Below, in pieces: positions 1 to 45,229 of a stretch of 64,000 nucleotides of DNA. The stretch lies in the NCBI GenBank assembly GCA_021234155.1, contig JAJEKV010000010.1:15630275-15694274 (forward strand), read 5' to 3'. The notes beneath the pieces were generated by a model. The model was not told where the DNA came from and made no database searches. It saw nothing but the letters and a program-made list of their open reading frames with translations. The translations under genes and the position numbers were made by a program. How positions within the stretch are numbered: position 1 is the first letter of the stretch; every line of letters starts with the position of its first letter. The stretch is from Isoetes taiwanensis (taxonomy: Eukaryota > Streptophyta > Lycopodiopsida > Isoetales > Isoetaceae).

Positions 1-3000
1 TTTTCAGGAGCCTTTGTTCCATCACAAACATCACAGTTACCATCATGATTACCTTTGGGAGACCCACCATCTTGACCGGCCACTGTTGAGGCAATCTCAT
101 TTCCTGGTACTGGACAATAATTTCATGTCCTGCTTCATCATGGGAATCCTGCTTGTTGTAAGTCCATAATTTTTACTTTTTGGCAAAGCTAATTACCTTG
201 CTTATGCAGGCTACACGGGTTCAAGTGCATGGAAAGTTTGTCTCTGGAATTTTGCTACCTTCGCAACTCTGCACTACAGAAGTTAAAGGTCTGTAATCTG
301 TTATACATAGAAGGATGCCATACGTTGTTTGCAGATTCGTTTCCCTGTTGGTGCAACACACGATATTGCAATCACAGTTTTATGTTTATGAATTCCCCAA
401 TCGTGATGGTCTGCATCATATCATTGGGTTTCAAAGAGTTGGATATTGAGCTTTCATCCTTACCATGGGATATGAATATATCATGGCTGGCAATTTAGTA
501 CATATCAAGAACCATGTATTCTTTTGTCTCAAGCCAGTTGTTCCTGCAGTCAAAAGGAGTATTGACTCACTGTACCTACACCAACACTTTTAATATGTAC
601 AAAAATCTATTGCATTCTAATGGTCATAAAATATACATAGTCATTACAGATAAGGATTGCTTGTATTGCTCATGTCTTTATGCACCATACTGGCTGCTTC
701 AGAAAGTACAACCTATCTCAGCAGAGAGGTACTCCAAAACTGCAGCAAGGTCGACAGGAGCTCTGGCTCTGGTATTTTCAATCTTTTAGAAACCTAGCAA
801 ACAGAAGGACAAACATTTAGCTAAGATTATTCTAATCTTCCCTATTTTCTCCATGCATGTTACCTTCAGAATGTTTCCAGGCAAAGCTTATTCCACCCTT
901 CAATCAAATCTGCAAAACAGTCACACAATTTTGCGTGATGATCAACAACTACATGTGAGATGGTGCCCTGGGATCACTGCAAAATTAGCAGACATTTGAA
1001 CATAGAATAGAGACAGAGAAGGCATACATATTCTAGGATAAGCCATGTCGAACATGGCAGCCCATGGTCGTTTCCAATTCCAATTTCTCATATTTCTACA
1101 AATAAAAATATTTCTCATATTTTTAATCTCAGTAATTGCCAGCAAGACCCAGCTTGGCAGGCTCCAAAACCTAAACAATATGTAGAAACCCACATGAAAA
1201 ACCCACAAAAACAATTCTTGAACTAAGATGTTTGCCGGATTCATATTGAGCTTTTGAAGCAATGATAGACAAAGGCACGCGAGGCACCACATTTAATTTC
1301 TAACATCATAGATGCCTCACCATGACCACATTCATGTCTCTAGACAATCTGGCAATGTAGTCTGCACACTGTAGACTTACAACAGTAAAAAAAACATGCC
1401 CTAGTAAAGAATGTCCCTTGCATAATTACTTGGTGCATCATGCGAAGAATTTTTCAAGGAGCTCACCCCTGTCCATCCCTTGCTGTCATCAAGCACTCTA
1501 TTTTCTTATTTCTATGCAACTCTTTCACCGGATTGAGAAGCAAGCATCTAGAGTTATGGAGGTTAAGGTTAAGCATGGGATATAGGGACACCCTCTCCTA
1601 ACGGCTAATAGAAACCAGAAAAGCTCCAGAAGGAAGAGCATGTCAAAAAAGAGTTGCTTATTGTGAACACTATGTACGTCCTTTGCATGCAATTCAAGAA
1701 CATAAATAAGTACGCCTAGCAATTGACAAAGCTAGAAGATTCACATGGACAGAGATGAAACCTGTCATGTTTGTATCCAAGCCTGATAAATTGATCAAAG
1801 ATTAGACAGAAGAATTGGACCATATATCTGATTATGTGATTGCCATTACCAGCAAATTGAAAGCCCTTTCTTGCAAATTTGACCTCTTTGGCCCTGCCTT
1901 GGCTCATTGTTCGTTCTTCAGGATTCTAAAACTTTTTAATTTGTAAAAAACAAATACTGAACTGATGTCCAGAGCCGTCTCAAGGTCTTCTGTTCACTGC
2001 CTCATGCCCTGCTAATGCACAAACCCTAGTTCTTGCATATGCCCTCTTCTTGCATCCCTATTTATTTCTCTCATAGTGCTATGAAACCGCAAATGTACCA
2101 TTATCAACAAATTCATTCCGGCAGCACAGCATTAAGTTCCAACTTCGTTTCACCCAAATTAGGTGCACTGTCACATGACTTTGCCCTTCGATAACAGAAA
2201 ATTTTTTTGTCCAGTGTGGGCCGTCAAATTTGCTCAGGTTAATTCTAGCTGCCCGATCTAGGGCGTGATCCACGACAAATAATTCTTCATGGCAAATAAT
2301 TGATCCGCTCCAAGCCGATCAAAAACTAAAAAGATCTCAGATTATGAAGGAAGCTAAAATCATTCAGAGGCGTGTATGCCATTGCTCTAGATGCTCCTGC
2401 ATTTGTAGAACCCTAGTGCAGTTCTCTGCTCCGGTGATGGTCTATTGCAGAAAACTCTGCTTCGATGATCAAAGCCTACAGAGATCAGCCTAAGTTTCTG
2501 CAACTTACCGTGGCTCCAACACAGGAATGCCCCTTGTTGATCCGGAAAGCATGATAAGGATGAACTCGAAATGAATGCATCCCTTCCTTTCGTTCAACAA
2601 AATTGGCCCATCGGATCTACTCGTTGAATTCTAGCCATTGGATTTAGGACTGGATTCAACACCGCATAACATTATAATATAGGATATAAAAAAACATGGT
2701 ATTATTATAGGGACAAAATGGATAGGGCTAGAGAGAGATATATACTCTATACAATTGGTCTAGTTATGGACCATAAATGGTCCATGTTTAATTATATTCG
2801 TATCTTCCAAATAATGTGTTATTTCGATATGAAAACTGAGAGTTATATTGCAAAGGAAGGCCCACATTCATGAAAAATATAGTGTACATGAAAGATGATA
2901 TACCAGTTTTATACTAGTAAGAAATAACTATGTTTCTCCATATTTTTTTGCAAGAAGGCCACACAACCTACATAGTGGACCCATATATATGTCCCTTGTC

Positions 3001-5781
3001 ATATTATTGAACCATTTGGAAGGCTTATTTGGAGAAATGTAGCGTGTTCTCTACAAAGCTGAGAAAGACGCATCAAAGGTCATGTGGTCTAATTATTGAT
3101 TCTTATAGTCAAACTTCAAAATCTTCACGTCCATTCATCAATAAACATCACTAACTATGTAAATGCTCAGTCTTCAGCCTATAACTTTGGAATTAACTCA
3201 AATTTTTAACTTCTAATGTGTTAATCATATGGCTGTACATCATCTTTAAATCTAGTTAATTGCATGATTAAACCCTAATTACACTATGTGCAAGTTGATA
3301 GAGTAATTTTCTATGTAGATATAAGTAGAATGCATCATTCATTACCCTCGTGGTACTCATAGATGGTGATTTTGGAGGAGTGTAACATATAATTTTGTCT
3401 CAAATTCCGTATAAGAAATTCTTTATTAAATTTGGAAGTTGATATAACTTATGAACACTCCAAGAAAATCTAACATTGTACTTCATATAGTTAACAACTC
3501 ATGGCCACAAGAATTGAGCCAAAACTTGTAATAATAAGAGAGAAAGAATTCCTAAACCGTAAGCAACATTTTTTAACAAAATGGGATTTGGCGGCTTTCG
3601 CGGATATTAGATGATAGCAACCAAAGCTGAAAACATACAAATCAAAAATCAATGTGTCTTATCATAGATAGGCAAGCACTTCCAATTTTAACAAGGTTCA
3701 GATCCGCTTATGGTAGGAAAACTCAAGAATGCAGTTCTGGACTGTTGCAGAGACTGCCAAATTCTCTAAAATTTGGACAATCACCACAACATATAGATGA
3801 GTTCATTGGTCGTGAGATTCTCAAAGATCATTAAGAATCAAGTAAAGATTGATATGGCGGTAATATATTATGAAATTCAAACTTCTATTCTCATTTATAA
3901 TGGTTTAAGTGGCAGTGGGTCAACTGGATCAATTCTGGTCCATGGATCAGGAATGGTCTCTAGGACAACTCTAGTGTTAATATTAATTCCACACACACAT
4001 TCTTCATCATTTATTATTCATGACCTTTTTTTATAATCATAATCTAATTCTTGTTATTCCTTCAATATTTGGTATAATACATACATAATTATATTTCCGA
4101 TTCTATTATATTTAACAGCGCATTCACTCTATACTTTATTATCTCAACATTTTCTTTCCACCATATTTTGAAATACTTTTCTTCTTTTGACTATCTCGCA
4201 TCTTTCCTGACCCACACTGTTTTTCTTAATCATACTTTACATTTACATGTGTAGACATATTAATTGATTAGTTATATCTATAGATTTATTAGACATGTAG
4301 AGATTCTTATATTTAGATCGCACAGATACATTCTATGAGGCACCGTTAAGTTGATGCCGCCTGGGCCGCTGTCTGCCGGTGCTGTGGCCATGCGATCTTC
4401 CTGTATCACAAAAGGGCAGTTGTGACTACGGTGTCCATGGCGGAAGCATCGAAAGCATGCCTGGTGCTTCTTGTGCCTGTTGTATATTGATGGTTGAGCA
4501 AGTGCTGAACTCTTGCTTGAAGTAGAAGTGTTAAACGTTGGGAATAAGGAGTGGTAAGGTATCCTTATTTTGGATCAATAGTCGAGAAGTGGTATATGAT
4601 TATCAGCCATAGACCGCGTTAAAGAGGTATTATACTAAGGTGGAAATTGGATCATAGATACCCAGCTTATGAAAGGGAGATCGCTTTAGAAGTGTAGGTT
4701 TCGACAATGGTGGTAAATGTGTAGAATGTTGACCCGACATTTTATAGCTATTGCTACTTGAATCGAGGTATGATTCATGGAAGGATAGAGAATAATGGCG
4801 TATGAGGACGCGGATCTATTATAGCTTATAAAATTACGCATAAGTTGCATTTTGTAAGAAGAGTGACATTCCTAAGGCGTGCAATATAGAACTGAATGAA
4901 GGCGGGAATAATCATTCTATAAGGCTGTTGGAATGGAAGACGTCAATTTCTAACAGAAGGCGCAATCGTCTGAAAGCTGCAAGGTATGTTGGATCTTTGG
5001 TGAAGCTATACTATGAAGGAAAGTTGACCTCCAACTAATGATACATTAGGGAGGCAGGTAATGTACGCAGACGACAAGTGTGAGACAAGATGAGCTTGAA
5101 AGTTGTGGTAAACAATGTTTTAAATAGGAACTTTTAGTTCATAGTTGATAGAAATACAGAAATAATGAAGATAAGAGTTCCTATACTAGACATTAATTAT
5201 GTCCATTAGGAACTTAGGGTGGCATCTCTCCCTGTGGAATTTGTGACTAGAGCTTGAAGATCACGAGCAACTAAAGTTAGAGAGTTTAAAAAGTGTGGTG
5301 TTAAGACCACAGCATGTATATCGTACGAGATAAACGAGTTGAGGAAATAGATTTGCGGCAACAAGAGGTTGATTTTTTTTTTTTTGGTGGATAATATCAT
5401 CCGCTATATTGTTATACAAAAGTGGATTATAACACATGTTAGTATATCACATAATAATAAGGTAGTGGTCATGGATGTTTGAAGGATTTAGTAGTATCAA
5501 ATACTACATTAGTGAGGATATCAAGGATGTCGATGGTGACATTCAGATGTATGTTATATTGGAAGATAGTAGAATAATCGTACAAGGCGAATGAGATGTT
5601 ACTTGACAAGGTTTAAGGACTAAGCATAATAATATGCTTATTTATAAAGATATGGGATTAGGTATGTTTTACGAGAGATAAGTATTCAGGTTATTCCAAT
5701 GGTTGGAGTTGATTATCTTAGATACATCGAACTAAGGGATATGAAAGGAGTTTAAATCGGGAAAAATAGATAGAGTAAGTC
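1..5781. other. AT-rich stretch without a supported gene
   Basis: No open reading frame here has recognisable domains; all are short and compositionally like noncoding DNA. One weak hint of an exon lies on the minus strand at about 2,510-2,640: a short frame starting MHSFRVHPYHAF runs into a good donor (ACG|GTAAGT, about 2,509), but no partner exon was found. From about 2.7 kb to 5.78 kb the sequence is AT-rich and looks like decayed intergenic or retrotransposon sequence. A T-run lies at about 5,370-5,382. Confidence 0.5.
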
Positions 5782-5806
5782 AAGCACAGTTTCATTAAAT
5801 ATGGAC
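5778..5806 (+). repeat. Element A left TIR and target duplication
   Basis: AGTC at 5,778-5,781 is followed by the 25-bp left terminal inverted repeat. Its outer 16 bases (AAGCACAGTTTCATTA) are identical to the reverse complement of the right end. Two central bases differ (AA versus TT), then TATGGAC matches again. Confidence 0.85.
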
Positions 5807-5853
5807 AATACCTTGAATTGTGGACTTTTTATAAAAGAGACGCTTCGATAACA

Positions 5854-8800
5854 CTAACATACATCCCCGGCAAGTGCCGCATATGCTTCAGCAACAAGTG
5901 TGGGAATCTTGACAGTGTTTGGTAGCTTCTTCTTATTCGAAGGACTCCAAGCGTAGTCGATACTCTCTATCTCAATGCGGTCACTAGCAGTGGTCGGCCT
6001 CCATCTCTTCTTCCAACAATTGACATAGTTGGCTGGGAACACCTGGTTCCTAACAGGGACAGGCTCCCACCAAGTGACCTGGATAGTCTCGAAGTTGTCT
6101 TTCTTATCATCCATTTGGGGTTCCTCTGTAGCATACCCTAGCCATGTTGGGCACAAGACATCATCAGGGCGCGCCAATACAAACATGCCCTTCTTCAAAT
6201 CCTTGAAAGGATTGAATTCTGGTACGGGCTTATCCTTCAATGGACCAACATAAGCAGGAGTGATGGTTGCAATTGGCTCCACCACAGCCACCACATCAGG
6301 TACGTCAAGTCTATCCCGCCTAGTGCGTGCCAAAAGTCCTCGTAAGGACCTTCCACGTTAGTGATGTTACCCGGATGCTCCAATAGTCCCATCCAATATT
6401 CAATTGTCGCCAGAATTGTCTTTGTATATTTGGCCGTCTCTCGGTGTGCCCTTCTTGTTCGTCGAGCATGCGACCCAATGCAGGATATGCTTATGGATAC
6501 TGTTTCGGAGCTGACCAATGTCTTTCACCGAGCTCTTAGGTGCTAGCATCTTCGGATTTCCAGATGGCATTAGGGGTTTTCCATCCTCTCCTTCTTTCCA
6601 CATTCTTATTCCACCAGCAGGTAGCCAATCCACGAACGTAGGACGAGCCTTATGGTACATGACAGGCCAGTCACCATTCATAGCAAACATAAAGGTTAGA
6701 GGCTCAGTGTGACCTGTCAATCTATCTTCCCCATCAGGGATATACCCTTCTATGAAACCCTTCCAATCTGGAACCTTATGAACAAGATATGGCACTGGCT
6801 TGTTGAGATTGCACGTATGAAATTCATACAACAACTCGGGCATGGTTAGCACTTCGGCTTTCCTCAAGGTAGATGAAAAATTACCAAACATAGCATCTAT
6901 ATCATCATGTGTATGGCCCGGCATCATAAAACCTAACTCAATCTCCTCGAAAACACCCAGATATACAAGGTATGAAAGATATGAGAATACATACCTATTT
7001 TTGTTTTGTCCGGATGCATTGTCTAGTTGCAACATCAATTTGCGAGGGAGGCGCTTCAATGAGGGTCCCTCAGGTTGAGGGATGGCAACGGGGATGCTCT
7101 TCCCAGACAGCGACAACTTGGATGCTAGCGCAGTGGTGTCACGTAAGGCCCTTGCCCAATCTGGGACTGAAGGATCAGACTGTGCAAGATGGCCTCCTGC
7201 AAACTCATTAGACAGCTCCAACCTTTTCAGAATACTATTCAAGGAACCTACGTGGAAGTTGGAGTCGTCTGACCACAGATCCAAAGCAAAATTTCCATAG
7301 CACCCTCTCCCATGGCCGTGGGTAAGTGCACCTGCCAACGAAGTCTTTAGCTTATCTAGTCTCCAAAGAGACTTCACGGAATCGAACAACTTTGGAATCA
7401 TAGTCTTTGCCTGATCCATTTTGTCGTGAATGATACATACATAGTCTCGAGGATGCCTGTGGGATAACAGTCTCCATGACCCGATCTTGGGTGCGACATG
7501 ATTGCTGCTCTAGTCGATGTGCCCTTCTCTGATCATGCAATATTCTCCTTTCAGCCTCATCCTTAGTCTTCAACAGCTTCGTGCGGATAACCTCGCAAGT
7601 GTCACACTTGGAGAATGCATTCTTCTTAGCAATACTGACGTCCTTGAAGCTACGTCTCCACGTCCTATGAAATCCTGTCGGAGATACCGTCTTGCCTGTG
7701 AGTGCCATCACTTCAGCGTTGACCTCTTCGAGAATGCATGTCTTAAGTAAACATAGCGAGGCAACTTCCTCACGTTTTCTCTAATCCCATCATCATTTCC
7801 CCCGCTACGGTGAGGTAAGGATTCAGAATTTTCCTTCACAAACATGGAAAAAACAGCCTCACGAGGCCAAGGTCGCCGCCGCGTGCTTTCATCGTGCTGG
7901 AATTGCCATGCTCACCTTTTCGAGCACCGGAGCGAATTTACGCCTTCCACTTGAGATACCCCGACTTTGAAATCCCAAGACCAAGGTACCAAGCTCTCTC
8001 ACAGACACTGACGCCTTGCAAGACTAGCCGATGTACCCTTTTACCCTTCAGATTGTTGCCTAACATATCATACACAAAAGTGGTCCTGTCACTCGATTTC
8101 ATGGCGAAGAAATCCTTTCGGATGTTTATAGCTTGATCCCTACTGAATTTCTCACAACATCTCTGTTTACAACACATGGTCTTCCTATACCTCAAGATGG
8201 CTTCATTGGTTGTTAGCCGATCTATCTTTGGAGGCTTTGATGCTTTCTTTGGCTGACGAGAATGGAAGGTGTATTTGCGCTTCTCGTACTGCGGATGCTT
8301 CTCAAGCTCCGAGCTCCCCTGGCTGGATGTGGTGTCATGTTGTTCCACTGGTGCTGCACTTAAAATTTCCGATACCTTCACCCCACAAACCCTAACTAGA
8401 TCATTATTCCACCTCAAAAGCATGCCCGCTTTAGGTATTGTCAAACATGCCTGACACCGGAAGTTCACCTCTGTCGGAGGGGGAAAGCCTTCAGTAACAG
8501 ACACTCCTACGGTTTTCATACCCAAGAACTGGTCACATACTGCATCGTCTGGACCAGTGAAGGATATAAATCCCTTCGCTGCAGGGATGGCAGCACAAGA
8601 GTGATAAATTTCGCAGTCAGTCTCCAATAGTGTGTACCTAGTTAGCGACATAGTGTCTGTCTTGCTTCCCACTCGTTGTCTTTTGGATGCTGATGGCACG
8701 TTCACGACATTGGAGTCCTGAACATCACTTTCCCTCCAGAGAATGAAGGAACCCAGTGCCTCAACCTAAGGTTCTTGCATCTGGAGTAGGCCAACAGAGA

Positions 8801-9018
8801 ACATGATGGCCCTCAAACACAGCTAGAACACCGACACTGACAAGTCCATTTGGGATGTCTTTGAAGTGGCATCTCTCCATGGCTCCTATGGCTCCTTTGG
8901 CAACTGCCCGACCGTCTTTGAATAGGTACACCTCCTGCACAAAGAAGAAATGATTTCGTTGATCCGCAAAGTTTTAGCAGTTGGTCCTTACCAGGTGAAA
9001 TTGGGTGACCGCCCAATT
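5854..9018 (-). pseudogene. Element A transposase (DDE-like, LQLDN/GHTHDDID family), frameshifted
   Basis: The gene reads right to left. Segments in order: about 8,950-8,775, EVYLFKDGRAVAKGAIGAME, after a good acceptor (TTTGTGCAG|GAG); 8,760-7,938, a 255-residue segment with a basic CCKQRCC cluster; 7,711-7,455, a CDTC motif and helical stretch; 7,440-6,400, the catalytic core; 6,330-5,854, a C-terminal domain with RPDDVLCPTWLG and YVNCWKKRW. The core has CIIHDKMDQAK, LQLDNASGQNKN and FMMPGHTHDDID. This signature is known to me from uncharacterised transposase-like proteins of algae, non-seed plants and invertebrates (I believe Pfam DUF7869, not checked). Frame changes near 7,455, 6,420 and 6,330, and a stop at the end of the 7,938 segment (YLKWKA), mark it as broken. 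A minus-strand donor near 9,917 (CACCAAAG|GTAAAT) could belong to a first exon, which would put the 9-kb hairpin in intron 1. Confidence 0.72.
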
Positions 9019-9088
9019 TGCTTCTTTTTGTAATGGTTCTTGGGAGGTGAAATTGGGCACCCGCCCAATTTCCTCCCTGCTGTAATCA
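9003..9088. repeat. Element A palindromes outside the large hairpin
   Basis: Two copies of the element A palindrome lie just left of the long inverted repeat, at about 9,000-9,020 (degenerate) and 9,049-9,070. The 22-bp unit has arms AAATTGGGC(G/A) and (C/T)GCCCAATTT around a two-base centre. They lie 5' of the transposase coding segments. Confidence 0.75.
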
Positions 9089-9563
9089 GAAAGACTATCT
9101 ATGTATCATTTATGAAAGCACCATGTGATGGCAAATTGGGCGGGTGCCCAATTACAACTGCTATGGAGCACTACAAGGAGAAATTGGGCGCCCGCCCAAT
9201 TTCACCTATTAAGAAAGACTGCAACAGGTAGCAAATTGGGCGGGCGCCCAATTTCACCTCCTTAAGACCACCGCAAGAGGGAGGAAATTGGGCGCCCGCC
9301 CAATTTCACCTGCTAAGGAACACTGCAACAGACTGCCTGTTCCAGTGTTCCTTAGCAGGTGAAATTGGGCGGGCGCCCAATTTCCTCCCTGTTGCGGTGG
9401 TCCTTAGGAGTTGAAATTGGGCACCCGCCCAATTTGCTACCTGTTGCAGTCTTTCTTAGCAGGTGAAATTGGGCGGGCGCCCAATTTCATGCTCCTTGTA
9501 GTGCTCCATAGCCCAATTTGCCATCACATGGTGCTTTCATAAATGATACATAGTTAGTCTTTC
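9089..9563. repeat. Long imperfect inverted repeat (475 bp) built from element A palindromes
   Basis: The left arm starts GAAAGACTATCTATGTATCA (9,089) and the right arm ends with its near-exact inverse (to 9,563); the centre is near 9,326. Matching landmarks occur in mirror order: CACCATGTGATGGCAAATTG against CATCACATGGTGC, GGAGCACTACAAGGAG against CTCCTTGTAGTGCTCC, and GACTGCAACAGGTAGC against GCTACCTGTTGCAGTC. Inside it are about seven of the 22-bp palindromes, so it is a palindrome of palindromes. It lies upstream of the transposase coding segments, possibly in an intron. It could form a cruciform or a long hairpin RNA, or be a foldback insertion. The sequence does not say which. Confidence 0.85.
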
Positions 9564-10029
9564 TATGTATGGGTCTATCTGCCCATACATAGTTGCCTAT
9601 GAATCAAACTACCCTACTTGGCCCTGCACATCTACCTGGGTATGAAATCGATTTGCTAACCTAGCTGGAATAAAATATGGCCATTCGCATCTACCTGGGG
9701 TGTCTAATTGGGTTGTAACGGGGCGACTTCCATGCTACCCAACATAGAATGTAGGCTAGGCTACGTCGGTTATGTTGGGGGACCGGGACATACATCTCAA
9801 ATCTTCTATTTATTTCTCAAATCTCATCAATAATGTTCTATACCAATCCGGGCATCTTAAAATCCCCCAGATGCAACCTTGGTGGCAAATAATAAACGTA
9901 AAACCGAAAAGAAATTTACCTTTGGTGAATCGCGACGCCCATTTGGAGAAGTAGCCGCCCAAGAATGTGGGAGAACGAAAAACTTAGCCGCTCCGCTTCA
10001 GTGAGAGTATTTCAAAGTTCAATTCTCTA

Positions 10030-10275
10030 ACTAAACTTTGATTGGGCGGGTGGGCCCGTAATATATATTCAAATTCAAATTCGGGCGGGACGGGCCCGTG
10101 ATTTCAAATCCAAATTGTGGCGGGCGGGCCCGTGATTTGAAATTCAAATTGGGGCGGGCGGGCCCGTATTCTTTAATTCAAATTGGGGCGGGCGGGCCCG
10201 TATTTTTAAATTCAAATTGGGGCGGGCGGGCCCGTATTTCTAAATTCAAATTGGGGCGGGCGGGCGGGCGGGCAT
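10030..10275. promoter_or_regulatory. GC-rich tandem repeat in the divergent promoter of element A
   Basis: Six units of about 34-38 bp consist of GGCGGGCGGGCCCG followed by an A/T-rich spacer (TTTAAATTCAAATT type), at about 10,040, 10,080, 10,118, 10,152, 10,188 and 10,224, ending in a GGCG run. The core is a variant of the element palindrome. The array sits between the putative transposase first exon on the minus strand and the TATA box of the fusion gene on the plus strand, so it may act as a bidirectional control region. Confidence 0.6.
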
Positions 10276-10325
10276 TTAATGTTTCCGTCATTTAAAGTCT
10301 CTTTTTATTGTTATTTCTTTTGGTC

Positions 10326-10333
10326 TATATATA
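10326..10333 (+). promoter_or_regulatory. TATA box of the element A fusion gene
   Basis: TATATATA lies about 30 bp before the pyrimidine/purine context at about 10,358 and 255 bp before the ATG at 10,588. It is immediately downstream of the GC-rich repeat array. A short upstream ATG at 10,369 (MAATCHSAVQ...) would give a small upstream ORF. Confidence 0.5.
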
Positions 10334-10924
10334 GTTCAAACGGTCTATTTTTAAGACACTTCATTTGCATGGCTGCCACTTGTCATTCAGCTGTTCAATC
10401 TCATCACCCATTCCTAACCGCTTGCTCATTCATTTGAGATTCTTGCTGCGCCTATCGACTTGAGAGTGATTGCGCCTTCGCCTATCGACTTGAGAGTGAT
10501 TCACGCTGCGTCTATCGTCGTTTGTGATTGCGCCAGGTTTCGATTCTTCTAAGCGCTGACCCTGAGCTTCCAGGCCCCACTGGTTTCATGGAAAAACGAC
10601 CCTTGAAGGAAGGAAAAGGTAGTGCTTTTATGTTTAAGTTTAGTTTATTATATTACTGCATTTGATCCAGCCACTGGCCATAAGCAGTCCACCCTAAATG
10701 AAATTCTCAGCTATCCTACATCCATCAGTTTTGGTTTCTATGCTTGTAAACCTTCTGGCGCGCGGGCCTGGCCTCTTGGTTGTGACTTAGTACATCAGGA
10801 GCTGTGTCCTCTGCACCAAATAACCCTCTACATCCACACACCCTCTGCTTCCATGCTTATAAACCTACTCTGGGTGTGTCGAAACCGGTCTGGCCGGTCT
10901 GGCGGGTCTTTGCTTGCTAACCTC

Positions 10925-35397: not shown

Positions 35398-35710
35398 CTT
35401 CTCGACGTCGAGAAAGGTCCTCAGACTTGCGTTTTTTCACTCTGAGCTGCCTTTCTCGACTCGCGAGTCGAGAAAGGCCATTAGAGAAGGCTTGAGGGTC
35501 TTTCTCGACTGAGAAAGGCCCTCATTAAATTTTTTTTTTCTTCAAAAAGAAAAAAAGAAAAAAAAAAGTTTTTTTTTCTTTGGGCTCACTCTGATCTGCC
35601 TTTCTCGACTCATGAGTCGAGAAAGACCATCAGGGGGCCTTGAGGGTCTTTCTCGCCGAGAAAGGCCTTCAAAAAACTTTTTTTTTCCTGCTTAAATGAA
35701 ATAGAGAATA

Positions 35711-35750
<40 letters not shown>

Positions 35751-35788
35751 GCTCTAAGCTACATTTCTCGACTCGCGAGTCGAGAAAG
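35398..35788. repeat. Remnant D palindromes (CTTTCTCGACTCG half-site)
   Basis: Six palindromes: 35,398-35,416 (short form, CGACGTCG centre), 35,451-35,476, 35,500-35,517 (short), 35,600-35,625, 35,648-35,664 (short, CGCCG centre) and 35,763-35,788. The full form is a 26-bp perfect palindrome with half-site CTTTCTCGACTCG. In the copy at 35,600 the centre is CATG instead of CGCG, so both halves changed together and symmetry is kept. T- and A-runs separate the copies, including a T-run of about 40 at 35,709-35,748. Position 5' of the transposase exon matches the layout of element A. Confidence 0.85.
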
Positions 35789-36142
35789 AACATGATTGAA
35801 AATTAAACGGGAGTGTTGCAGCACTCCCGTTTCAAAGATTCCCTTGAAAAAAATAGCCTGCTCTAGAAAATGACACTTTTTTTCTTCTAATTGGGAATTC
35901 CAACAGGCTTAATTTTTTTTACCTCTTTTTTGGCCCCTTAGTGCAAAAGAACTTGGATTTTGCCAAAAGCAGCACTTGAAAAGGGAAGAATTTAGACATG
36001 ATTTTGTGTTCTCTAAAAGTATTTTCTTGGAAACACCAGAATATAGTGAATAAAATAATCATTATATAATTAAAGTGTTTCAATGACATCAATTTGTAAC
36101 AACACATGAAGGTGAGTAATAAATTTTTTTGTAAAAGACAGA
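35789..36142. other. Short hairpin and 3' flank of the element B fusion gene
   Basis: AAACGGGAGTG and its inverse CACTCCCGTTT (about 35,805-35,832) form an 11-bp stem with loop TTGCAG. It might be a leftover of abutting element ends, but this is not established. The rest is AT-rich and contains no gene. It is the 3' flank of the minus-strand fusion gene. Confidence 0.5.
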
Positions 36143-39100
36143 CTAAAGGTCCAAATCGTAGTCTTCATCATTCTTTTTGCTTGTTTCTGCTGTGCCAGAT
36201 TCTGTAGTCTGATCCTTTTCTTGTGCCTTACCCTTGTCTACTTCTGCAGTGTCTTCAGGAATGGTAGCTAGTGCTGCTTCTTTCAGCTCTGCAAAGGTAG
36301 CTTCATCATCTAAAGAGCTAGTGAATGGAGGCTGTATCTCTGAAGAGGTCAGCTTGGCAAAGTCAGATGAGGATCTGGCGCCTAACTCTTGGTGCTCATC
36401 TGGTAGGGTAGGCAAGGCAACCAGTCTCATCTTGATGAAGTTCACAGCTTCTTTATCTATGTCCAATGCTACACAATTCTTGCCCTTCTTAAGTGCACAA
36501 GCTATTGTTGTACCAGAGTCAGAAAAGGCATCAAGCACCCAATCTCCTGGACGTGAAAACATGTCTAGAAGATGGTTGATTAGCTTTTGAGGCTTCTGGT
36601 AGTGATTAACAATTCTACCTTGTGCACTAGGGTCTTGTAGCTTCTGAAGCACAACTGGAAATTCCAAAACATTAGAAAAGTTCTGGCATGCTGCAGTGTT
36701 AAAATGCTCCATGGTGCGTTTGCCATCGAAACTCCAGTAAGCAACATGGAGGTATTCGACCTTACTCAGCAACCTCGGGCCGCCGCCATGGTAGTTTATA
36801 TTTGTCTTGTACCTGTAGAAATTAAAGTCGTGTCACTAACAAAAACAGAACAAGAAACAAACAAAGAGAACAAGTCAAAAGCAATCATATTCTGGAATAC
36901 AAAACGAAAACACAAAGAAGAAATAAACCCAACGTATTCCAGAATAAAGTACTCACCAAACCAAATTCTCATAACCAGCTTGGACTGGGGATCCGAAATG
37001 ATTTTTGAACGTTGACTCCACAAGGCCGGATTGTATGCTCGAATGAAACACGACAAGACGCCAGTGCTTGGCCGTTGTGACTTGTTTAATACCGTCGACG
37101 AAAGCGTTAAACTCTGAATTTTTAAAAGGCTGATCGTCGTAACGGTTGTCCTTTAGTTTGAAGCCATAAGGAAGGTCCGCTATGACCAGTGTAAAATCCT
37201 GTGGCTTTACTGTGCCAACCAGTTTAGTGCAGTCCCCGTGGATGATAGAAAACAAATTGTTTTGGTCGTACACACTTCTAGAGTCCTCCTATCTGCCAGT
37301 GTTCTTTCTTCTCGTGCCAGTCTCACGAGGTGCATGAAACCTTTTGGCAGGTCCTTATTTTTCTTCTTGTTCTGCAAACAAAAGAGATTGAGACAGAGAC
37401 AAGTCAAGTATGATATGTTTAGTCAGCGTACCCATCCTTCAAAATTTGGAGCGTACTGAACACTACGCTCGTCGGATGTAGCAATGGGATAAAGCTCCTT
37501 GCACCTCTCCCACGTCTCAACGTTAAGTTGCTCCATCAAACATGTCTGGCAGGTGATGACATTTTTTTGGCTTGAAAGAAAACCACAACCATTTTAGCAG
37601 TTGGAAAGTAAACTATCTTCCTGCCACGTAAACTTATTCTAGAACACAAGAGTCTTAAACAACATTTTTGTTGTTGCAGCAGTGTATTCCAGAATACACT
37701 TTAACTGCAGCATAGGAGCATACACTTCCACAACGCACCAAGTTAGAGTGTGTATTCCAGAATACATTTTCGCTGCCTCGAAGGATTAAAAGTGTATTCT
37801 GGAATACACCTTTACACTACACAAAGGGCGAAGGTGTATTCTGGAATACACCTTAGCACTGTACGAAGGGCGAAGGTGTATTCTGGAATACACTTTCGAT
37901 CCCTCAAGGGGGGAAAAGCATATTCAGGAGTACCCGATTGCTCTTATTTTGAGGTTCTTGTAGAATTCAAGAAATGAAAAGGCAGCAAAGATGGTAAAGC
38001 TTACTTGCGCAACTCCTTCGACATTTCTTCTAGTGTGAACTCCTTGTCCACCACCTTCTGCAGGAGCCGTTCTAGTAACTCTGTGTCAGTAAACCCCTGC
38101 ATCTCCCTCCAGACAGGGATAGTCATTTCTTTTTTTGGCGCGTCGGTGCCTTTCTTCTTCTCCGAGACCTTGCCCTTACTTTTTAGTTCACCACGCTCAA
38201 ACATATTAAATATTTCGTTTTGAAGCTCCCAGATCTGCAAACAAAATAAGAAAATCATCAGCTAGTCGTCGACAAGGAACCTTTTTTGTACACGAAATCT
38301 TATTCTGGAATATGCTTGTAACGTACCCTGCCATCCCTGAATGCTAGCTGAAACCAGTTGTCATGGCCAATGAGTGACGCCCATTTCTTCGCCTTGTCGT
38401 ATTTAAGGCAACACTCAATGGCACAAGCTTCTTTAAGTTCAAGTGAGTACTGTGGCTTTTTCAAATCCTCCCCGTACTTTTCCTTGAAGATGACATATTC
38501 TCTGTGCATAAATCTAATTTTGTCGACAAAGCTCATTTTTAGCTTGTACTCGTTGTCAGCGTTGTGAATATTGGCAACAATTTTGGCTTCTTCGTCGGTC
38601 AAACCATAGTAAACTGCACAGAGAATAGACAAGTACCTAGGATTCTTTTTTTCTTTGTACAATTGCCTCCTAGCCTTGAAGCTGTAGTTCCCACCCAAGA
38701 CATAATGCGTGTATGTATCCGCATTTTCTTTATCGTAATCTGCAGGACTTGTGCACTGCTCCTTATCAACAAGAACCACAATAGGAGCAACGTGTGCGTT
38801 TGGATTGCTTTGAATTCTGTCCTTTAGGTTCCTTAGATGATCTGCATATATCTTTCGAACCTGCAGTGGTCGTTCTCCAGCTTCATTTTTTGGAGGAAGC
38901 TTCATTGATGTGACGGGCAAGTAAATGACACCTTGCACAAACTTGTGCAGGTTAATCTCTTCCATATTCTCTGATGTTTTATCAATCTTCTTTTCTTTAA
39001 TGGCAACACCAGGTGCTTTGCCCTTCCCCTTTTTCTTTTTGGGTGCTTCCTCAGGAGCATCTTCTGTTGCAATTAAAGCCGTTTTTCTTTTTTTAGGCTC

Positions 39101-39712
39101 CTTGGCAGCAATGGTCAGCCTCTGCTTCTTTGGTGGCGGTGATGGTGGCTGCTCTTCGGAGGCTGATGGACTGCTCCCAGACTCTGATGGATTGCTCGGG
39201 CTCCGTTGGTCTTCCTCTTCCCCCTGTGATGACTCGCTGTGGGCGAAGTCTTCGCTCTGTGTGCTTCGAACGTCGTTAATGATGGCACTGAGCTTTCTCT
39301 TGTTGAGGTAGTGAGAAACATACTTGTAAAGGGCCGGTGGGTTTACTTTCACCATTCTAAAAAAGGCTTCATCAACATGAATAAAACCTTGGGATGTCTG
39401 AAAGGACAGTCTCCCTCGTTGACCGGACTCCCCAGCTACTTCACTCACAGCTTGGATGGTGCCCATGCAGACAAATTCTCTGTCATCGTACCTTTTTGCT
39501 CCAGCACTCCGACAGACATGTAGGAAAGTGAGGGTGCTATACTTTCCAGCTGTACCCCTTGTGAAGAACCATTGAGTTTGAAAGTTCTCGTAGATAGCAG
39601 GCTTAGAAGTATCGTCAACCCTTCTCTGTGGGTGCGCTTTCTGAGCGATTTTAATGGTCTTCTTCTGTTGTTTCTTGCTGCCTTCTTGCATGTACACATT
39701 GTGTGTAAACAC
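36143..39712 (-). CDS. Element B fusion gene: ParB-like domain plus DNA amino-methyltransferase (DLPYG)
   Basis: Exons (minus): 39,712-38,327, 38,234-38,005, 37,570-37,432, 37,371-36,957 and 36,812-36,143, with GT-AG junctions. All joins are in phase, but a single frame change near 37,290 in exon 4 breaks the frame. Exon 1 (about 460 aa) has an N-terminal globular part, an acidic/basic disordered linker with NLS-like PPKKQRL (residue 194) and a ParB-like domain (about 255-390: YLPVTSMKL, IVVLVD, YVLGGNYSFKARRQL, LTDEEAKIVANIHN). Exon 3 has CQTC. Exon 4 carries HGDC and IADLPYGFKLKDNRYDD (motif IV). Exon 5 has YQKPQKLINHLLDMFSRPGD (motif X) and VLDAFSDSGTTIACALKKGK (motif I, the first Gly of FxGxG being Asp), then LDIDKEAV. 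The order IV...X-I is the beta class of N6-adenine/N4-cytosine DNA methyltransferases, common in bacteria and phages and there sometimes joined to ParB domains. The tail is acidic. The target base is unknown. Confidence 0.75.
37681..37935. repeat. Element B palindromes in intron 2 of the fusion gene
   Basis: Copies of the 20-bp palindrome (consensus AGTGTATTCCGGAATACACT, here mostly CCAGAA or CTGGAA centres) lie at 37,681-37,700, 37,750-37,769, 37,791-37,810, 37,833-37,852 and 37,874-37,893, with a degenerate copy at about 37,917. Spacing is about 41 bp in the regular part. They fall in the intron between exon 2 (donor 38,004) and exon 3 (acceptor 37,571). Single copies or half-sites lie in other introns at about 36,890, 36,935 and 38,303. 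Confidence 0.85.
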
Positions 39713-39928
39713 GACCTTGTTAGAGAAAACAGTGGCAAAAAACTATTCCAGAATACAAAATGTCTTGCAAAAAGGACAAAAAGAGGACAAAACGAGGACA
39801 AAAAAGCCAAAACAACACTGCGACCTTGACAAAAAAACAGGGCTAAACAAGTTCTAAAAACGAAAAAAACGCCTAAAATTACCGAAAAAACTAGAAAAAA
39901 TTGACCTTTCAAAACCTTGAGACACGAA

Positions 39929-40510
39929 AGTGTATTCCGAAATACACTTTCGCCTTTCCCGAAAGCGAAAGTGTATTCCGGAATACACTTCCGCCTTCAC
40001 GTGAAGGAGAAAGTGTATTCCGGAATACACTTTCACCTAGTGTATTTCGGAATACACTTTCGCTTTAGGTAAAGGAGAAAGTGTATTCCGGAATACACTT
40101 TGGCTTCAGTGTGTAAGCCAAAGTGTATTCCGAAATACACTTTGTCTTACACACGAAAGCCAAAACCTATTCCGGAATAAGAAACTGTCTAAAAAATGAT
40201 TATATGTTGTACTTTGTTACTCACCTGTCCATGTCTTCTCTATGTATATCGGAATACAGTCTCTGAATATTATATTCGAGGTGCTGGCGCTGGCGACTTG
40301 AGCTCAGAGACTGGAATACGCAACTGAAGGCGCCAAAATTTCCTTTTCAAGGTATCCATTATGTTTTGCTCGTATTCTATGTGAAGTGGAATACGTTTAG
40401 CTTTACTATCCTACTCCAGTGTATTCCGAAATGTATTTTAGTTTGACTTTCACTTAATTGGTACAGGAATTTCTACTTGTACTACGTGGGCGTGTATTCG
40501 GGAATAAGAA
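39929..40510. promoter_or_regulatory. Element B palindromes in the divergent promoter
   Basis: Copies lie at 39,929-39,948, 39,970-39,989, 40,012-40,031, 40,039-40,058, 40,080-40,099 and 40,122-40,141, with degenerate copies at about 40,167, 40,419 and 40,492. Most are exact 20-bp palindromes spaced about 41-42 bp apart. Several spacers are themselves palindromic (CTTCACGTGAAG, and CTTTCGCC with GGAAAGC-type partners). The block lies between the 5' ends of the fusion gene (minus) and the transposase (plus). A minus-strand donor (ATGGACAG|GTGAGT, about 40,225) suggests a leader exon for the fusion gene. Confidence 0.8.
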
Positions 40511-40566
40511 AAGCTCCGCACTAGAGAAGGTTTCTCAAGTCTCTTCACTATTTTGCAGTTGTTAAA

Positions 40567-42836
40567 ATGACGAACTGCTTCGTGAACAAACTTCCGCCAC
40601 CTTTTGTTGTCTTAAGCTCGTCTAGTTCTGAGGACACACTTGGGAACAACATCATTTCTACTGAAGACCGGCATTCTCCGACTCCGACCTCTACTTCATC
40701 ATTGTTGCTTCTCGAAGACACACCGAGTCCAACACGTAACAGACTTCCACCACCCTTCCAACCGTCACCAAGTCCGGTGAGGCGATGGCGGCATCTCCTT
40801 CCAAAGCATCACCACCGGTTCGGACATCTTTGCCACCACCCTTCGTTCCATCCCCCTGACCTACAGATGCTCCACAACAACGGGTGCTCAAGAACAAGCT
40901 ACCCCCCCCCCCTCCCCCCCGTTTGTAGTTTCGCCTCCTTCATGCAAACATACAAGGAACACAGAAAACAAAGAAGACTATGAGATTCACTACAATTTCT
41001 CTCACCAGAACTTCACTACAAATGAGGACGATGCTGCAGCATGCACTCCTCTTCACATAGCGGTTGTGACACACGGATTTGGAGAATTCCAGTCCGCTCT
41101 AAAGGAGATGTTTGCAAGAACTCCTTTTCAGGATGGTACAAGAACAGCTGATGCCACAACATCTTATGGGCCATCACCATCCTTTAACACTGTGCTACCG
41201 CCTTTTTCGGGAACAACTTCGCGTGGTCTGTTTTCCTCTACAAACACACCACTCAGGACAGAGGAAGTCACCCCTAGAGTAGAAAAGTTTCATCAGAAGA
41301 TGAAGACACCAACGAGGAACAATGAGATTACATGTTCTCCAGCCAATCTTCAAAGAAATTCAAGGTGGATTTTGGTTTGAGGGCATGCTCCTCTGTAAGA
41401 AGAAGAAATCTTATGGATGAACACAAAATGAGAAGACTCCTGAGAACTAAATGCTGCTCATTGGGTTGCATCAACAGATTTAACATGGCCAAATTACGAG
41501 CAGTTAGAGACAAATACAGTTCAATGACTTTGGTAGACCAGAATGCCTACTTAGCTTATCATGTAAGACCAGACTGCAACACCTTCTTGCATTACATTAA
41601 CCGTGAACAAGTCTGCCAAAAATGCTTCATGGTTGTCCACCATTTAGGGTCCACAAGAATGTCTCGAATACACAAAAGACTGGACAAAAACCCAGCAATT
41701 GATGATCACTGTGGTCCAAGAAGAGTTGTAACTATGCATGCCCTAGCTGCTGTTACATGGATGGAGAAATATTTTAGAGAGACATGTGAGAAGTTGCCTA
41801 ATAGCAACATGTATCATCTCACAGACAATATTACAAAAAAGACGTCTTTAAAGAATACAAAGAGACATGCATTTAGTTTCAGCACATCTCTTACTCACAC
41901 TTCACCAGACTGTGGAAAAGTGAATTTGGCCTTGTGAAAATTCCAAGAAGACATAGAATGTTTGTTTGCTCAAGATGTGCAGAATTAAAAAGTCAACGAA
42001 AAACTGCAAAGACAGAGGTCGAAAGAAGTAAGCTCATGTCCTCCATCCTATCACTTGCTTTGAAGAAAAGTTTTTAACCAGATTTCTTTTACAGATATTG
42101 TGCAACAGAATCTTGCCAGACATCGTGAACAACAAGCAGTAGAGAGAAGAAAGCTCGCCAAGCACAGAAAAAAAAGCACTCGAACGTCCATTGCAATACA
42201 TGTCTATTGTAATTGATGGAATGGATCAGAAAAAGACAACTCTACCCCATTTCCTAAATATTCCAAAAGATGTGCCAGAGGAATATTTTGTTAAAGTCCA
42301 CCTTGTGGGAGCCATGATCTTCAAAGGAAGTTTAAAGTGCAAAGTATTTTTGACGTATCCAAACTTGCATGGGGACCCAAACCTGACAATTACAATCCTT
42401 AACAAGGTCCTGTGCGAGCAAGAGCAACTACCACCCGTGCTCTACTTGCAACTTGACAACACTACAAGAGAACAAGAATCAAACACTCTTTGCTTATTGT
42501 GCTATGTTAGTGGAGCTAAGGATCTTCAGAAAAGTAAAGCTCGGATTTTTACTTGTAGGGCACACCCATGATCAGATTGACCAGATGTTCAACAGATTTT
42601 CTGTGCGCCTTAGAAGGAAGAAAGCTTTTTGTCTTCCTACTTTAGTTCGAATCATTAAAGATTTTTACACTCCTGTTCCAGTGGTCGAGCTTCTTAAAGA
42701 GACTGCAGACTTTAGAGAGTTTGTTTTTCCTCAACGTTCAGATAGAGAACTAGCTGTGAACAAGTTGAATGATCTTACCTTTCAACATCACATCAAGTTC
42801 TACTTGAAGGATGGACAAAGCTTCTTACAGGGGAAG
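40567..42836 (+). pseudogene. Element B transposase (same family as element A), frameshifted and 3'-truncated
   Basis: An ATG at 40,567 opens a Pro/Ser-rich, probably disordered N-terminal region (MTNCFVNKLPPPFVVLSSSS). A frame change follows near 40,950 and another near 41,370. A cysteine-bearing segment (TKCCSLGCINRF...NREQVCQKCF) lies at 41,390-41,930. An intron (42,029-42,094, GTAAGC...TTACAG) precedes DIVQQNLARHREQQAVERRK. The core reads IVIDGMDQKKTTLPHFLNIP (42,205), LYLQLDNTTRE (42,444), a frame change, then KVKLGFLLVGHTHDQIDQMF (42,530). These match element A CIIHDKMDQAK, LQLDNASGQN and GFMMPGHTHDDID. A frame change also occurs in the A-run near 42,170. The frame dissolves into simple repeat at about 42,840, so the C-terminal module seen in A and D is missing. 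Confidence 0.75.
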
Positions 42837-42845
42837 AATGTTGGG

Positions 42846-42935
42846 GTTGTCACCACTCACCACACTCGTCACCACACTCATCACCACTCACCACTCACCA
42901 CACTCGTCACCACTCACCACATTCACCACTATTGA
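42846..42935 (+). repeat. CACCACTCACCACACTCGT simple repeat
   Basis: A short-period CAC/ACTC-rich tract truncates the element B transposase and separates it from the LTR sequence that follows. Confidence 0.8.
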
Positions 42936-42939
42936 GGTG

Positions 42940-43211
42940 GTATAGAAAACAGTATACCGTATATGGAGTGATATATGCATATGCACCGTGCAGGATATTT
43001 GCACGTATGCATTGTGGAGCCATTATGATTAGAGTGTTAGCTGAGCAGAGAGAGAAGAACAGAGAGACGGTGTATTAGGAGAGTGTATTTTGCTTGATCT
43101 ACCTATGGAGATGATGACTCTTTGTGTTGTGCATTGCTTTGATCTGATAGATTGAGCTTGGATTGTTGGGTTTTTCATCCTTCTTGCAAGGTTAGAGTTC
43201 AGGCTCTAACA
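42940..43211 (+). repeat. Probable 5' LTR remnant of an LTR retrotransposon
   Basis: The sequence ends in CTCTAACA (43,204-43,211), followed at once by ATTTGGCGACCACGGTGCTC, the LTR/primer-binding-site junction style common in plant Ty3-type elements. GAG coding begins 190 bp later. The left limit of the LTR is unclear, and no 3' LTR was found in the window. Confidence 0.55.
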
Positions 43212-43401
43212 ATTTGGCGACCACGGTGCTCGACAGACCATTGATTGGCAAGAATTTCCATTGAAAAAGGAGTTGTTACCATTGGTATTGGTGATCGTCG
43301 GTAAAGAACGACACCATTGAGAAAGGAGCAATTTTATGTGTGAAGGGAATTTTGCCGTAATTGATTTGTGGGGTAGAATTTGACAAGGGGAGCATAGTTT
43401 T

Positions 43402-45229
43402 ATGCCCAAGGGAAGTAAGAAGGATATCCCACCAAGCTCTATCTTAACAAGAAGGGGACCGGTGAGTCAATCTTTGGGCTCAGAATTGCATCAAGATTCA
43501 ATTTCGTTTTCATATTTGGGAGCAGATCTGGGGTCTAATTCTCAGATCCAGGAGGTTTTGATTCCATTTACTGATCTAGAAGGTAATCCAATTTCGTTTT
43601 TCAAATTGAAGGGAGATTCAATTTCGTTTATCCAATTTCAAGAAACTCAAGAAGAGGCAGAGATGGCTGTATTACCACCTATGGTATGGGGTTTTCAGAC
43701 AATGGGGATTCCAAAGTTTGATGATCTGGTGGATCGGGATCCTTTGAAACATATTGTGAAGTTTGAGAGGTATTGCCAGCAATGTAAGTTACCGGCTGCT
43801 GATTACTTGCTTTGGTTTCATAGTTCTTTGCAAGATTCAGTGGAGGAATGGGCACAAACCCAGCCAGATACCATGACATATCAGGAATTAAAGGAAGCTT
43901 TCATTGCTAATTATCAAGAAGTTCATGGTAAGGATAAGACTATGGAAAGGTGGACAAATTTCACACAAAAGGAAGATGAATCAATTAGAGAGTATAATCA
44001 GAGGTACATTGCGGTTCTCAAAGCCGTGGTTCATTGGAAGATTGCAAGGAACGATGAAATGGATATGGTATGTAAAGGGGATGAAACGAGCTATTGCTCA
44101 TAAGGTGAAGGCTAAACAGCCTACAACATTGCTAGAGGCACAAAAGCATGCTCTCAAGATTGAAGATAAGATGGGATACATTCATGAAGTTGCTGCTCTA
44201 GAGCATAAAACAGAGGATATTGCAGCCAAGATTTCTAAGCTTACAATTGGTGAGAAGCCAAGGGAGGTGCAGTTTATTACTTGTGAGTATTGTGGGTCTA
44301 TTGGACATTCTGATACTAGTTGTAGATTGCTAAAATTCTGCTCAAGATGCCAAATAAAAGGTCATAATGATCAAGAATGTAGGGAGAAGAGATTCTTTGA
44401 GAGGGCCAATCCGGTATTTGTTGTTATGCAACAAACACCACCTATTCCTATTCAACCAATGCAAGTAGTACCTATCATGCCACAAGTGCCAATGATGCCA
44501 CGAGCTCCAATTGCCCAACAAGCTTCAATTGGTTCCACACAAATGGTGCAGCCAAAACAGGGATGGTATCCAAGTAAGGCTCATTTGTATTGCAAGTTAT
44601 GTGATAAATTCAAGCATGATGAGAGTACTTGTTGGAAAATCCATGGGAAACCAGAATGGGCAACCAACAAGTATCCACCAAGGCAGCAAGTGTTTGAATC
44701 AGTAGCTCTTCCTAATAATGATGTTCGCATTCAAGATGCAAAGTACATTGATAATTCTCAAGTTAAGGCTCTTATTGAGGAGCTTAAGAAGCAAACGAAG
44801 GCAAAATCAGTTGTGAATTGTGGATTTGTTGAGGTGGAGAATGATCCATTTCAGCAAGAAGAAGAGATTGGAGAAGTAAATGCGGTTACAAGATCACAAA
44901 AGGTGGTTCAAGAACCAAGAGTAGTGCCGATAGCAGAGAAGACTAAGAGTTCTTTGCCAAAGGCTTTGACAGGATCAGCCTTAAAGGTGTCAGCACCTAA
45001 GAAGGTGCAATTCCATATGCTGCCCACAAAACAATTTCAGTCTATAGAAGAACGTCAGCCCATGTTGATGCCTCCTATGGTGGAGGAGGACGTTCATAAT
45101 GAAGATGATGTGATCAGCCAAGTTTTGGCCACTACGATCACACTTACTCTTGAGAAATTGATGCAGTATTCTCCAAATTTGTTGCAAGAGTTAGGGGAAA
45201 CAACAAAATCAGTGCGATGTGAGTATTAA
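43402..45229 (+). pseudogene. Retrotransposon gag with zinc knuckles, one frameshift
   Basis: Frame 1 (43,402-44,060) starts MPKGSKKDIPPSS and contains the retrotransposon gag domain (FDDLVDRDPLKHIVKFERYC, LWFHSSLQDSVEEW, FIANYQEV, NFTQKEDESIREYNQRY). It continues in another frame after a shift near 44,050 (MKRAIAHKVKAKQPTTLLEA). Two CCHC knuckles follow (CEYCGSIGHSDTSC and CSRCQIKGHNDQEC), then a Met/Pro-rich linker (PIQPMQVVPIMPQVPMMPRA), a further cysteine motif (CKLCDKFKHDESTC) and a Lys/Glu-rich tail. Gag packages the element RNA. No protease, reverse transcriptase or integrase follows, so this is a gag-only or truncated copy. Confidence 0.8.

Follow-up and report, generated by a model that had tools for sequence, protein, structure and literature searches.

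What does a bacterial-type DNA methyltransferase gene do inside a plant DNA transposon? The question is raised by a stretch of 64,000 nucleotides from the lycophyte Isoetes taiwanensis (GenBank assembly GCA_021234155.1, contig JAJEKV010000010.1, positions 15,630,275 to 15,694,274 of the forward strand), referred to below as the window. A reading of the letters alone (the sequence-only reading) had proposed that it holds a spliced gene joining a ParB-like domain to an amino-methyltransferase within a DNA transposon. Directed N6-adenine or N4-cytosine DNA methylation is disputed in land plants. N6-methyladenine (6mA) has been called controversial in eukaryotes generally (PMC12695648). We found that the window element is a degraded copy of a large DNA transposon family in I. 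taiwanensis. A full element carries a DUF7869 transposase gene, a divergently oriented six-exon ParB-like/N6-N4 methyltransferase gene, and arrays of a 12-bp palindrome, TATTCYRGAATA, which the ParB-like protein may bind.

To define the element, we searched the genome assembly (1,658,258,908 bases in 1,110 contigs) and fetched 13 copies, drawn from 29 non-window copies with a DUF7869 gene within 6 kb. Terminal inverted repeats were detected at both ends in 9 of the 13; the other four lacked one end by the pattern used. The two-ended elements are 8,042-8,393 bp long and all nine are flanked by identical 4-bp target duplications (TAAC, TAGG, TAGC, CAAT, GAAA, ACAT, CTTA, AATG, and TTTG). Similarity among the fetched copies begins and ends abruptly. 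By its ends and target duplications, the family has been mobile in the past. Genome-wide, 1,068 right ends were counted at up to two mismatches (control, 0). The proposal of a DNA transposon bearing a spliced ParB-like/methyltransferase gene is borne out by the terminal repeats and duplications, and the gene belongs to a multi-copy element and has introns, as a bacterial contaminant would not.

The two genes travel together. In at least 30 of the best-scoring 89 copies the ParB-bearing exon lies head-to-head with DUF7869 at 3.2-3.9 kb, and at least 43 methyltransferase-DUF7869 pairs fall within 20 kb of each other vs. 0.54 expected (150 × 150 listed places). These lists hold the best 89-150 of 2,294-10,546 rough candidates, so co-occurrence is underestimated. 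Six DUF7869 copies were chosen because no listed methyltransferase was nearby, and 6/6 hold at least part of the ParB-bearing exon (in L030, C1018:2449500-2457500, only its N-terminal half is inside the cut stretch). The methyltransferase therefore looks like a core component of the element. The earlier label "cargo" was right in making the gene part of the transposon, but it understates the association.

The methyltransferase half was readily recognized. Searched alone against Pfam, the last exon of the window copy matched N6_N4_Mtase (PF01555) at E=2.9e-14 and 54 bits, above the curated cut-off of 26.7. A search for intact copies had been proposed as a check. In another copy, L010, the methyltransferase exons stay open; several other fetched copies carry stops or frame breaks. 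The spliced L010 product (952 amino acids) matched N6_N4_Mtase at 1.1e-16 (61.9 bits), phrog_67 "DNA methyltransferase" at 1.1e-27, and CcrM (6pbd) in the PDB at 1.2e-8. Motif IV, D[LI]PYG, is encoded by exon 5 and precedes motif I in exon 6, the beta-class order that had been read from DLPYG in the window. FSDSGTT had been taken for motif I; the position is right, but this spelling occurs in the window copy only. Among 10 other copies in which the last exon was compared, five have FSGSGTT (L005, L010, L011, L013, and L014), two have variants (FSGSDT in L008 and FSSSVQT in L009), and three are out of frame or interrupted at motif I (L003, L006, and L007). By family, the predicted gene product is certainly a beta-order N6/N4 DNA methyltransferase.

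The ParB-like domain (226 amino acids) appears to be real, but its similarity to known ParB proteins is remote. TIGR03764 (ParB of integrative and conjugative elements) matched it in 13/13 copies at E<=1, with a best E of 5.6e-5. The window copy gave E=4.1e-4, below the 1e-3 threshold for ParB-family membership. DUF6551 matched in 12/13 copies (best 0.0028), and the "ParB-like partition protein" families phrog_723 and phrog_1033 in 4/13 (best 0.11) and 1/13 (best 0.019), respectively. The 13 copies are related, and these matches are not independent of each other.

The palindrome TATTCYRGAATA was not remarked on in the sequence-only reading. It occurs 111 times in the nine two-ended elements vs. 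0.05 expected from Markov shuffles. All 111 sites fall in 24.2 kb of non-coding DNA and none in 49.6 kb of coding DNA, the coding mask being defined by tblastn, so that a palindrome straddling a mask edge would score as non-coding. The flanks of the same elements contain it once in 16.4 kb. All sites are upstream of the transposase start, and 62 are in the later methyltransferase introns. Within these elements of 8.0-8.4 kb, palindromes start no closer than 1.0 kb to the left end and extend no further than 4.7 kb. No similar enrichment was seen for other palindromic 4- and 6-mers, the highest ratio being that of GGATCC (12 vs. 6 expected). A 14-bp form was found 6,792 times genome-wide vs. 24 times for the reversed control. 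The 12-bp palindrome is family-specific, and within the element only the shared promoter and non-coding parts of the methyltransferase half contain it.

The sites also persist as copies diverge. They are kept in L009 and L010, whose ParB-bearing exons share 68-69% identity with that of the window copy. Within 1 kb upstream of this exon, columns of the alignment in which one or more copies have a palindrome are conserved at 0.90 (135 columns) vs. 0.76 elsewhere (876 columns), although choosing columns in this way somewhat favors conserved ones. Among one-mismatch variants of TATTCCGGAATA, 54/66 are CpG transitions. Of 10 sampled palindrome clusters, taken from the first 100 listed places with some skipped and thus not a random draw, seven hold methyltransferase exons by tblastn (three by exon 4 alone). 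Two more have >2 kb of element-like DNA, a measure that is partly circular since the arrays themselves match, and one has only 362 bases.

Selection was estimated segment by segment as the ratio of the proportions of non-synonymous and synonymous differences (pN/pS). All pairs of kept copies were used, uncorrected for multiple hits, with 9-14 of 14 copies per segment; in each segment, 0-5 copies matched over too short a length to be retained, and a few did not match at all. The values are descriptive, as the copies are related and some are pseudogenes. Median pN/pS was lowest in the ParB-like domain (0.09), followed by exon 3 (0.12) and the two methyltransferase-domain parts (0.13 and 0.20); the transposase gave 0.28-0.47. 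Values of 0.31-0.39 were obtained for the N-terminal region, linker, and tail, and this rest of the protein shows no greater constraint than the transposase. Of all segments measured, the ParB-like domain, the methyltransferase domain, and the intervening exon 3 are the most tightly constrained, and purifying selection on the two domains exceeds that on the transposase. In a first-pass comparison of non-synonymous and synonymous substitution rates (dN/dS), pairs with saturated synonymous sites or a dS of <=0.05 were dropped, leaving 20-77 pairs per segment.

The reading that we prefer, at a probability of about 45%, is that the ParB-like protein binds the palindromes of its own element and methylates that element as an anti-silencing measure. 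The ParB-like region would recognize the palindromes and, once bound, would park the methyltransferase on the promoter and introns. The enzyme would then deposit 6mA or N4-methylcytosine (4mC) on the element, and these marks could keep it expressed despite silencing by host cytosine methylation. In effect, this would be anti-silencing addressed by sequence, as VANC provides for the Arabidopsis VANDAL elements, but with a different protein. VANC proteins are described as binding short, tandemly arrayed motifs that occupy mainly non-coding DNA of the VANDAL elements themselves, in introns and upstream regions, and as causing loss of DNA methylation (PMC5735166). The Isoetes elements resemble this layout in having motif arrays in the introns and upstream non-coding DNA of the same elements, with 111/111 sites outside the coding stretches. 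They differ in that the motif is palindromic and would be bound by a putative methyltransferase, whereas VANC removes methylation. More tentatively, it is possible that such a self-addressed epigenetic writer shields about a thousand or more copies and represents an independent, chemically different counterpart of VANC in a vascular plant.

Several observations weigh against this reading, most of them concerning the ParB-like domain. The window copy scored 20.1 bits with TIGR03764, where the curated cut-off is 143.75. The proposed search against ParB/Srx families therefore gave an E-value below 1e-3 for TIGR03764 but left its curated cut-off unreached, and Pfam ParBc matched 0/13 copies. A profile search of the PDB with the domain gave no match at E<=10, and structure prediction of the ParB-bearing exon, also proposed as a check, yielded an unusable model (mean predicted local distance difference test score, pLDDT, of 40). 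The nucleotide-contacting arginine of GxxR is missing in 13/13 rows in either register of GGN[HY]S, and because of its absence a ParB-like clamp switch in the plant protein seems unlikely. As to a canonical parABS system, only the two genes described here were recognized in the copies, no search having been aimed at ParA. In a whole-genome search (1.66 Gb) with the bacterial TIGR03764 profile, 147 of 161 candidates were scored and 145 listed at E<=10; the best E was 0.022 and none was over the cut-off. Of these 145, 50 coincide with ParB exons on our lists, a further 22 adjoin listed methyltransferase exons, and nine adjoin listed DUF7869 exons. The remaining 64 match no entry of these lists, which hold the best-scoring candidates, and the two of them that were examined (L026 and L029) carry the ParB exon. 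The arrays have a weakness of their own: neighboring palindromes are 41-43 bp apart in 40/102 intervals, a spacing that is explained in part by tandem duplication, so the sites in one array are not independent. Lastly, none of the six picked DUF7869 loci was a methyltransferase-free element that could serve as a control, and the palindromes could for that reason belong to the transposase or to a host factor.

Such an origin of the sites is an alternative that we regard as somewhat unlikely. The palindromes would be DUF7869 transposase or host-factor sites on the shared promoter, and the methyltransferase, without using them, would mark the element for control of transposition, e.g., in hemimethylation timing. 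Transposases often bind internal repeats, and besides the missing control this explanation can point to the palindromes located in the first intron and the promoter common to both genes. It does not sit well with the absence of any of the 111 sites downstream of the transposase start, with the 62 in later methyltransferase introns, or with their distance from the ends, which shows that they are not subterminal. The same 62 sites, an unexpected place for operators, count against an autoregulator, in which the palindromes would be operators through which the ParB-like/methyltransferase protein represses the two divergent genes and restrains copy number, with methylation secondary. We consider this unlikely: palindromes are indeed concentrated near exon 1 and in the interval separating the two starts, and the strongest selection does fall on the ParB-like domain (pN/pS 0.09), but with 1,068 right ends the copy number is high.

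It is improbable that the methyltransferase helps to silence its own element or targets host genes instead. The excess of CpG transitions among TATTCCGGAATA variants is what would be expected if the host methylates the cytosine of the central CpG. However, the palindromes are mostly the element's own, as nine of the 10 sampled clusters indicate, and purifying selection is not easily explained by self-silencing. Bacterial contamination or chance resemblance is scarcely credible. In its favor, ParB-methyltransferase fusions are reported to be frequent in phages (PMC12704722), and the plant protein joins the same two domain types; against it, the gene has introns. The plant protein also differs from the phage fusions in lacking the GxxR arginine. 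The number of right ends likewise speaks against contamination. So does a comparison with 50,697 phage records, of which 230 matched; the 25 listed align only to the methyltransferase part, with 23-25% identity. This explanation is further weakened by two IMG/VR scans and a GTDB genome scan, which are seeded with short peptide patterns and best suited to close relatives, and in which no relative was confirmed (tblastn E<=1e-3), and by a plasmid search with the ParB exon only, which gave no match.

The sequence-only reading knew of no ParB-methyltransferase gene carried by a DNA transposon. One has in fact been published: in the brown alga Ectocarpus, a ParB-like/N4-N6 methyltransferase is encoded by the element Sola1-1_Ec32, on the other strand from the transposase, and green and red algal elements of like kind are cited in the same paper (PMC12477816). 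Its authors suggested that proteins of this type might act on the very transposon that encodes them, binding and modifying it; a palindrome array is not mentioned in the section on transposable-element diversity (PMC12477816). Both elements are DNA transposons with the two genes on opposite strands, but Sola1-1_Ec32 is described as 21.5 kb long with a 1104-amino-acid protein, compared with ~8 kb for the element of the vascular plant. The Isoetes transposase carries DUF7869. A 4-bp target duplication would fit Sola. N4CMT of bdelloid rotifers is reportedly a host gene and not a transposon gene. It too is a bacterial-type amino-methyltransferase in a eukaryote (PMC8885841). TET/JBP genes ride in several fungal DNA transposon lineages and have been discussed as a counter to silencing (PMC12730594); they are likewise transposon-borne DNA-modifying enzymes, but TET/JBP oxidizes methyl marks, whereas the Isoetes enzyme is a putative methyl writer. 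Among the matches listed in the open-access literature, including two Isoetes genome papers, we found no land-plant report. New here are the lycophyte host, the DUF7869 partner, the copy number, and the palindrome.

If the preferred reading is true, the family would be a genuine source of sequence-directed 6mA or 4mC in a land plant. A multi-copy transposon with a methyltransferase under selection and a defined candidate target makes the land-plant 6mA/4mC question directly testable in one species. The family also suggests that transposons of distant eukaryotes have adopted bacterial-type DNA-modifying enzymes as standard equipment.

DUF7869 is possibly a DDE/D transposase. It matched at 1.9e-51 in copy L014, and acidic motifs (VIDGMD, LQLDNT, and GHTHDQID) are present in the protein; the predicted structure was unusable (mean pLDDT 35). 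At L014:6645-8996 the transposase frame extends beyond DUF7869; no Pfam family matches this extension, part of which is strand-rich in the low-confidence model. L030 has a long open transposase frame and still holds five palindromes, although its cut stretch takes in no more of the methyltransferase gene than the N-terminal part. L022 was considered as a diverged family and rejected as a decayed copy.

The features of the window copy are listed in Table 1. The six-exon methyltransferase gene spans 36143-40232 on the minus strand, with intron sites common to other copies. Five coding exons with phase-keeping GT-AG joins had been recognized before, and comparison of copies added a tiny first exon, found as ATGGACAG followed by GT upstream of the ParB exon in 9/13 copies examined, the window copy among them. 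The pattern TATTCNNGAATA occurs 14 times in the window, always within the element and never in an exon.

Table 1. Features of the degraded transposon copy, in window coordinates.
Feature	Position	Strand	Basis or remark
Left terminal inverted repeat AACATGATTGAAAATTAAACGGGAG (left transposon end)	35789-35813	+	End shared with other copies
Methyltransferase exon 6 (last), C-terminal half with motif I	36143-36812	-	Pfam PF01555, E=2.9e-14; splice sites and motif
Two TATTCYRGAATA palindromes, last intron	36888-36946		Pattern positions
Methyltransferase exon 5, motif IV DLPYG	36957-37371	-	Frame change near 37290 in the window copy
Methyltransferase exon 4, CQTC-containing linker	37432-37570	-	Splice sites and phase common to other copies
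Five TATTCYRGAATA palindromes, exon 3-4 intron	37685-37890		Four at 42-bp spacing
Methyltransferase exon 3	38005-38234	-	Splice comparison with other copies
One palindrome, exon 2-3 intron	38301-38312		Pattern positions
ParB-like domain within exon 2	38327-39004	-	TIGR03764 in 13/13 copies
Methyltransferase exon 2: N-terminal region, charged linker, ParB-like domain	38327-39689	-	TIGR03764 and splice comparison
Palindromes, first intron (39744, 39974, 40016, 40084, 40168)	39744-40179		Partly tandem array
Methyltransferase exon 1	40225-40232	-	ATGGACAG then GT donor; comparison with other copies
Palindrome variant TATTCGGGAATA between the two genes	40495-40506		Pattern positions
Head-to-head DUF7869 transposase gene	40567-42838	+	PF25273, E=1.1e-30; interrupted by introns or frame breaks

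The suspicion that this copy may be dead, raised by a frame change near 37,290, proved well founded. The frame change is real, and splice comparison across copies shows the exon-2 acceptor altered from TACAG to TACAT. Motif I, the S-adenosylmethionine (SAM) motif, is altered in FSDSGTT, and similarity to other copies stops at ~42,838 on the transposase side, leaving the right end missing. With a broken splice acceptor, a shifted frame, an altered SAM motif, and no right end, the window copy is, to judge from its letters, dead.

Where the transposase gene breaks off, the stretch 42849-45229 holds first a satellite-like 19-bp repeat and then frames that match retrotransposon gag (1.3e-7) and weakly resemble Ty3 capsid. 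Just outside the left transposon end, another palindrome, CTTTCTCGACTCGCGAGTCGAGAAAG, is present with variants at 35451-35788. Between the two genes of the window copy (39690-40570, including the first intron) the CpG observed/expected ratio is ~1.06; the methyltransferase gene has a ratio of 0.58 and the window as a whole one of 0.53.

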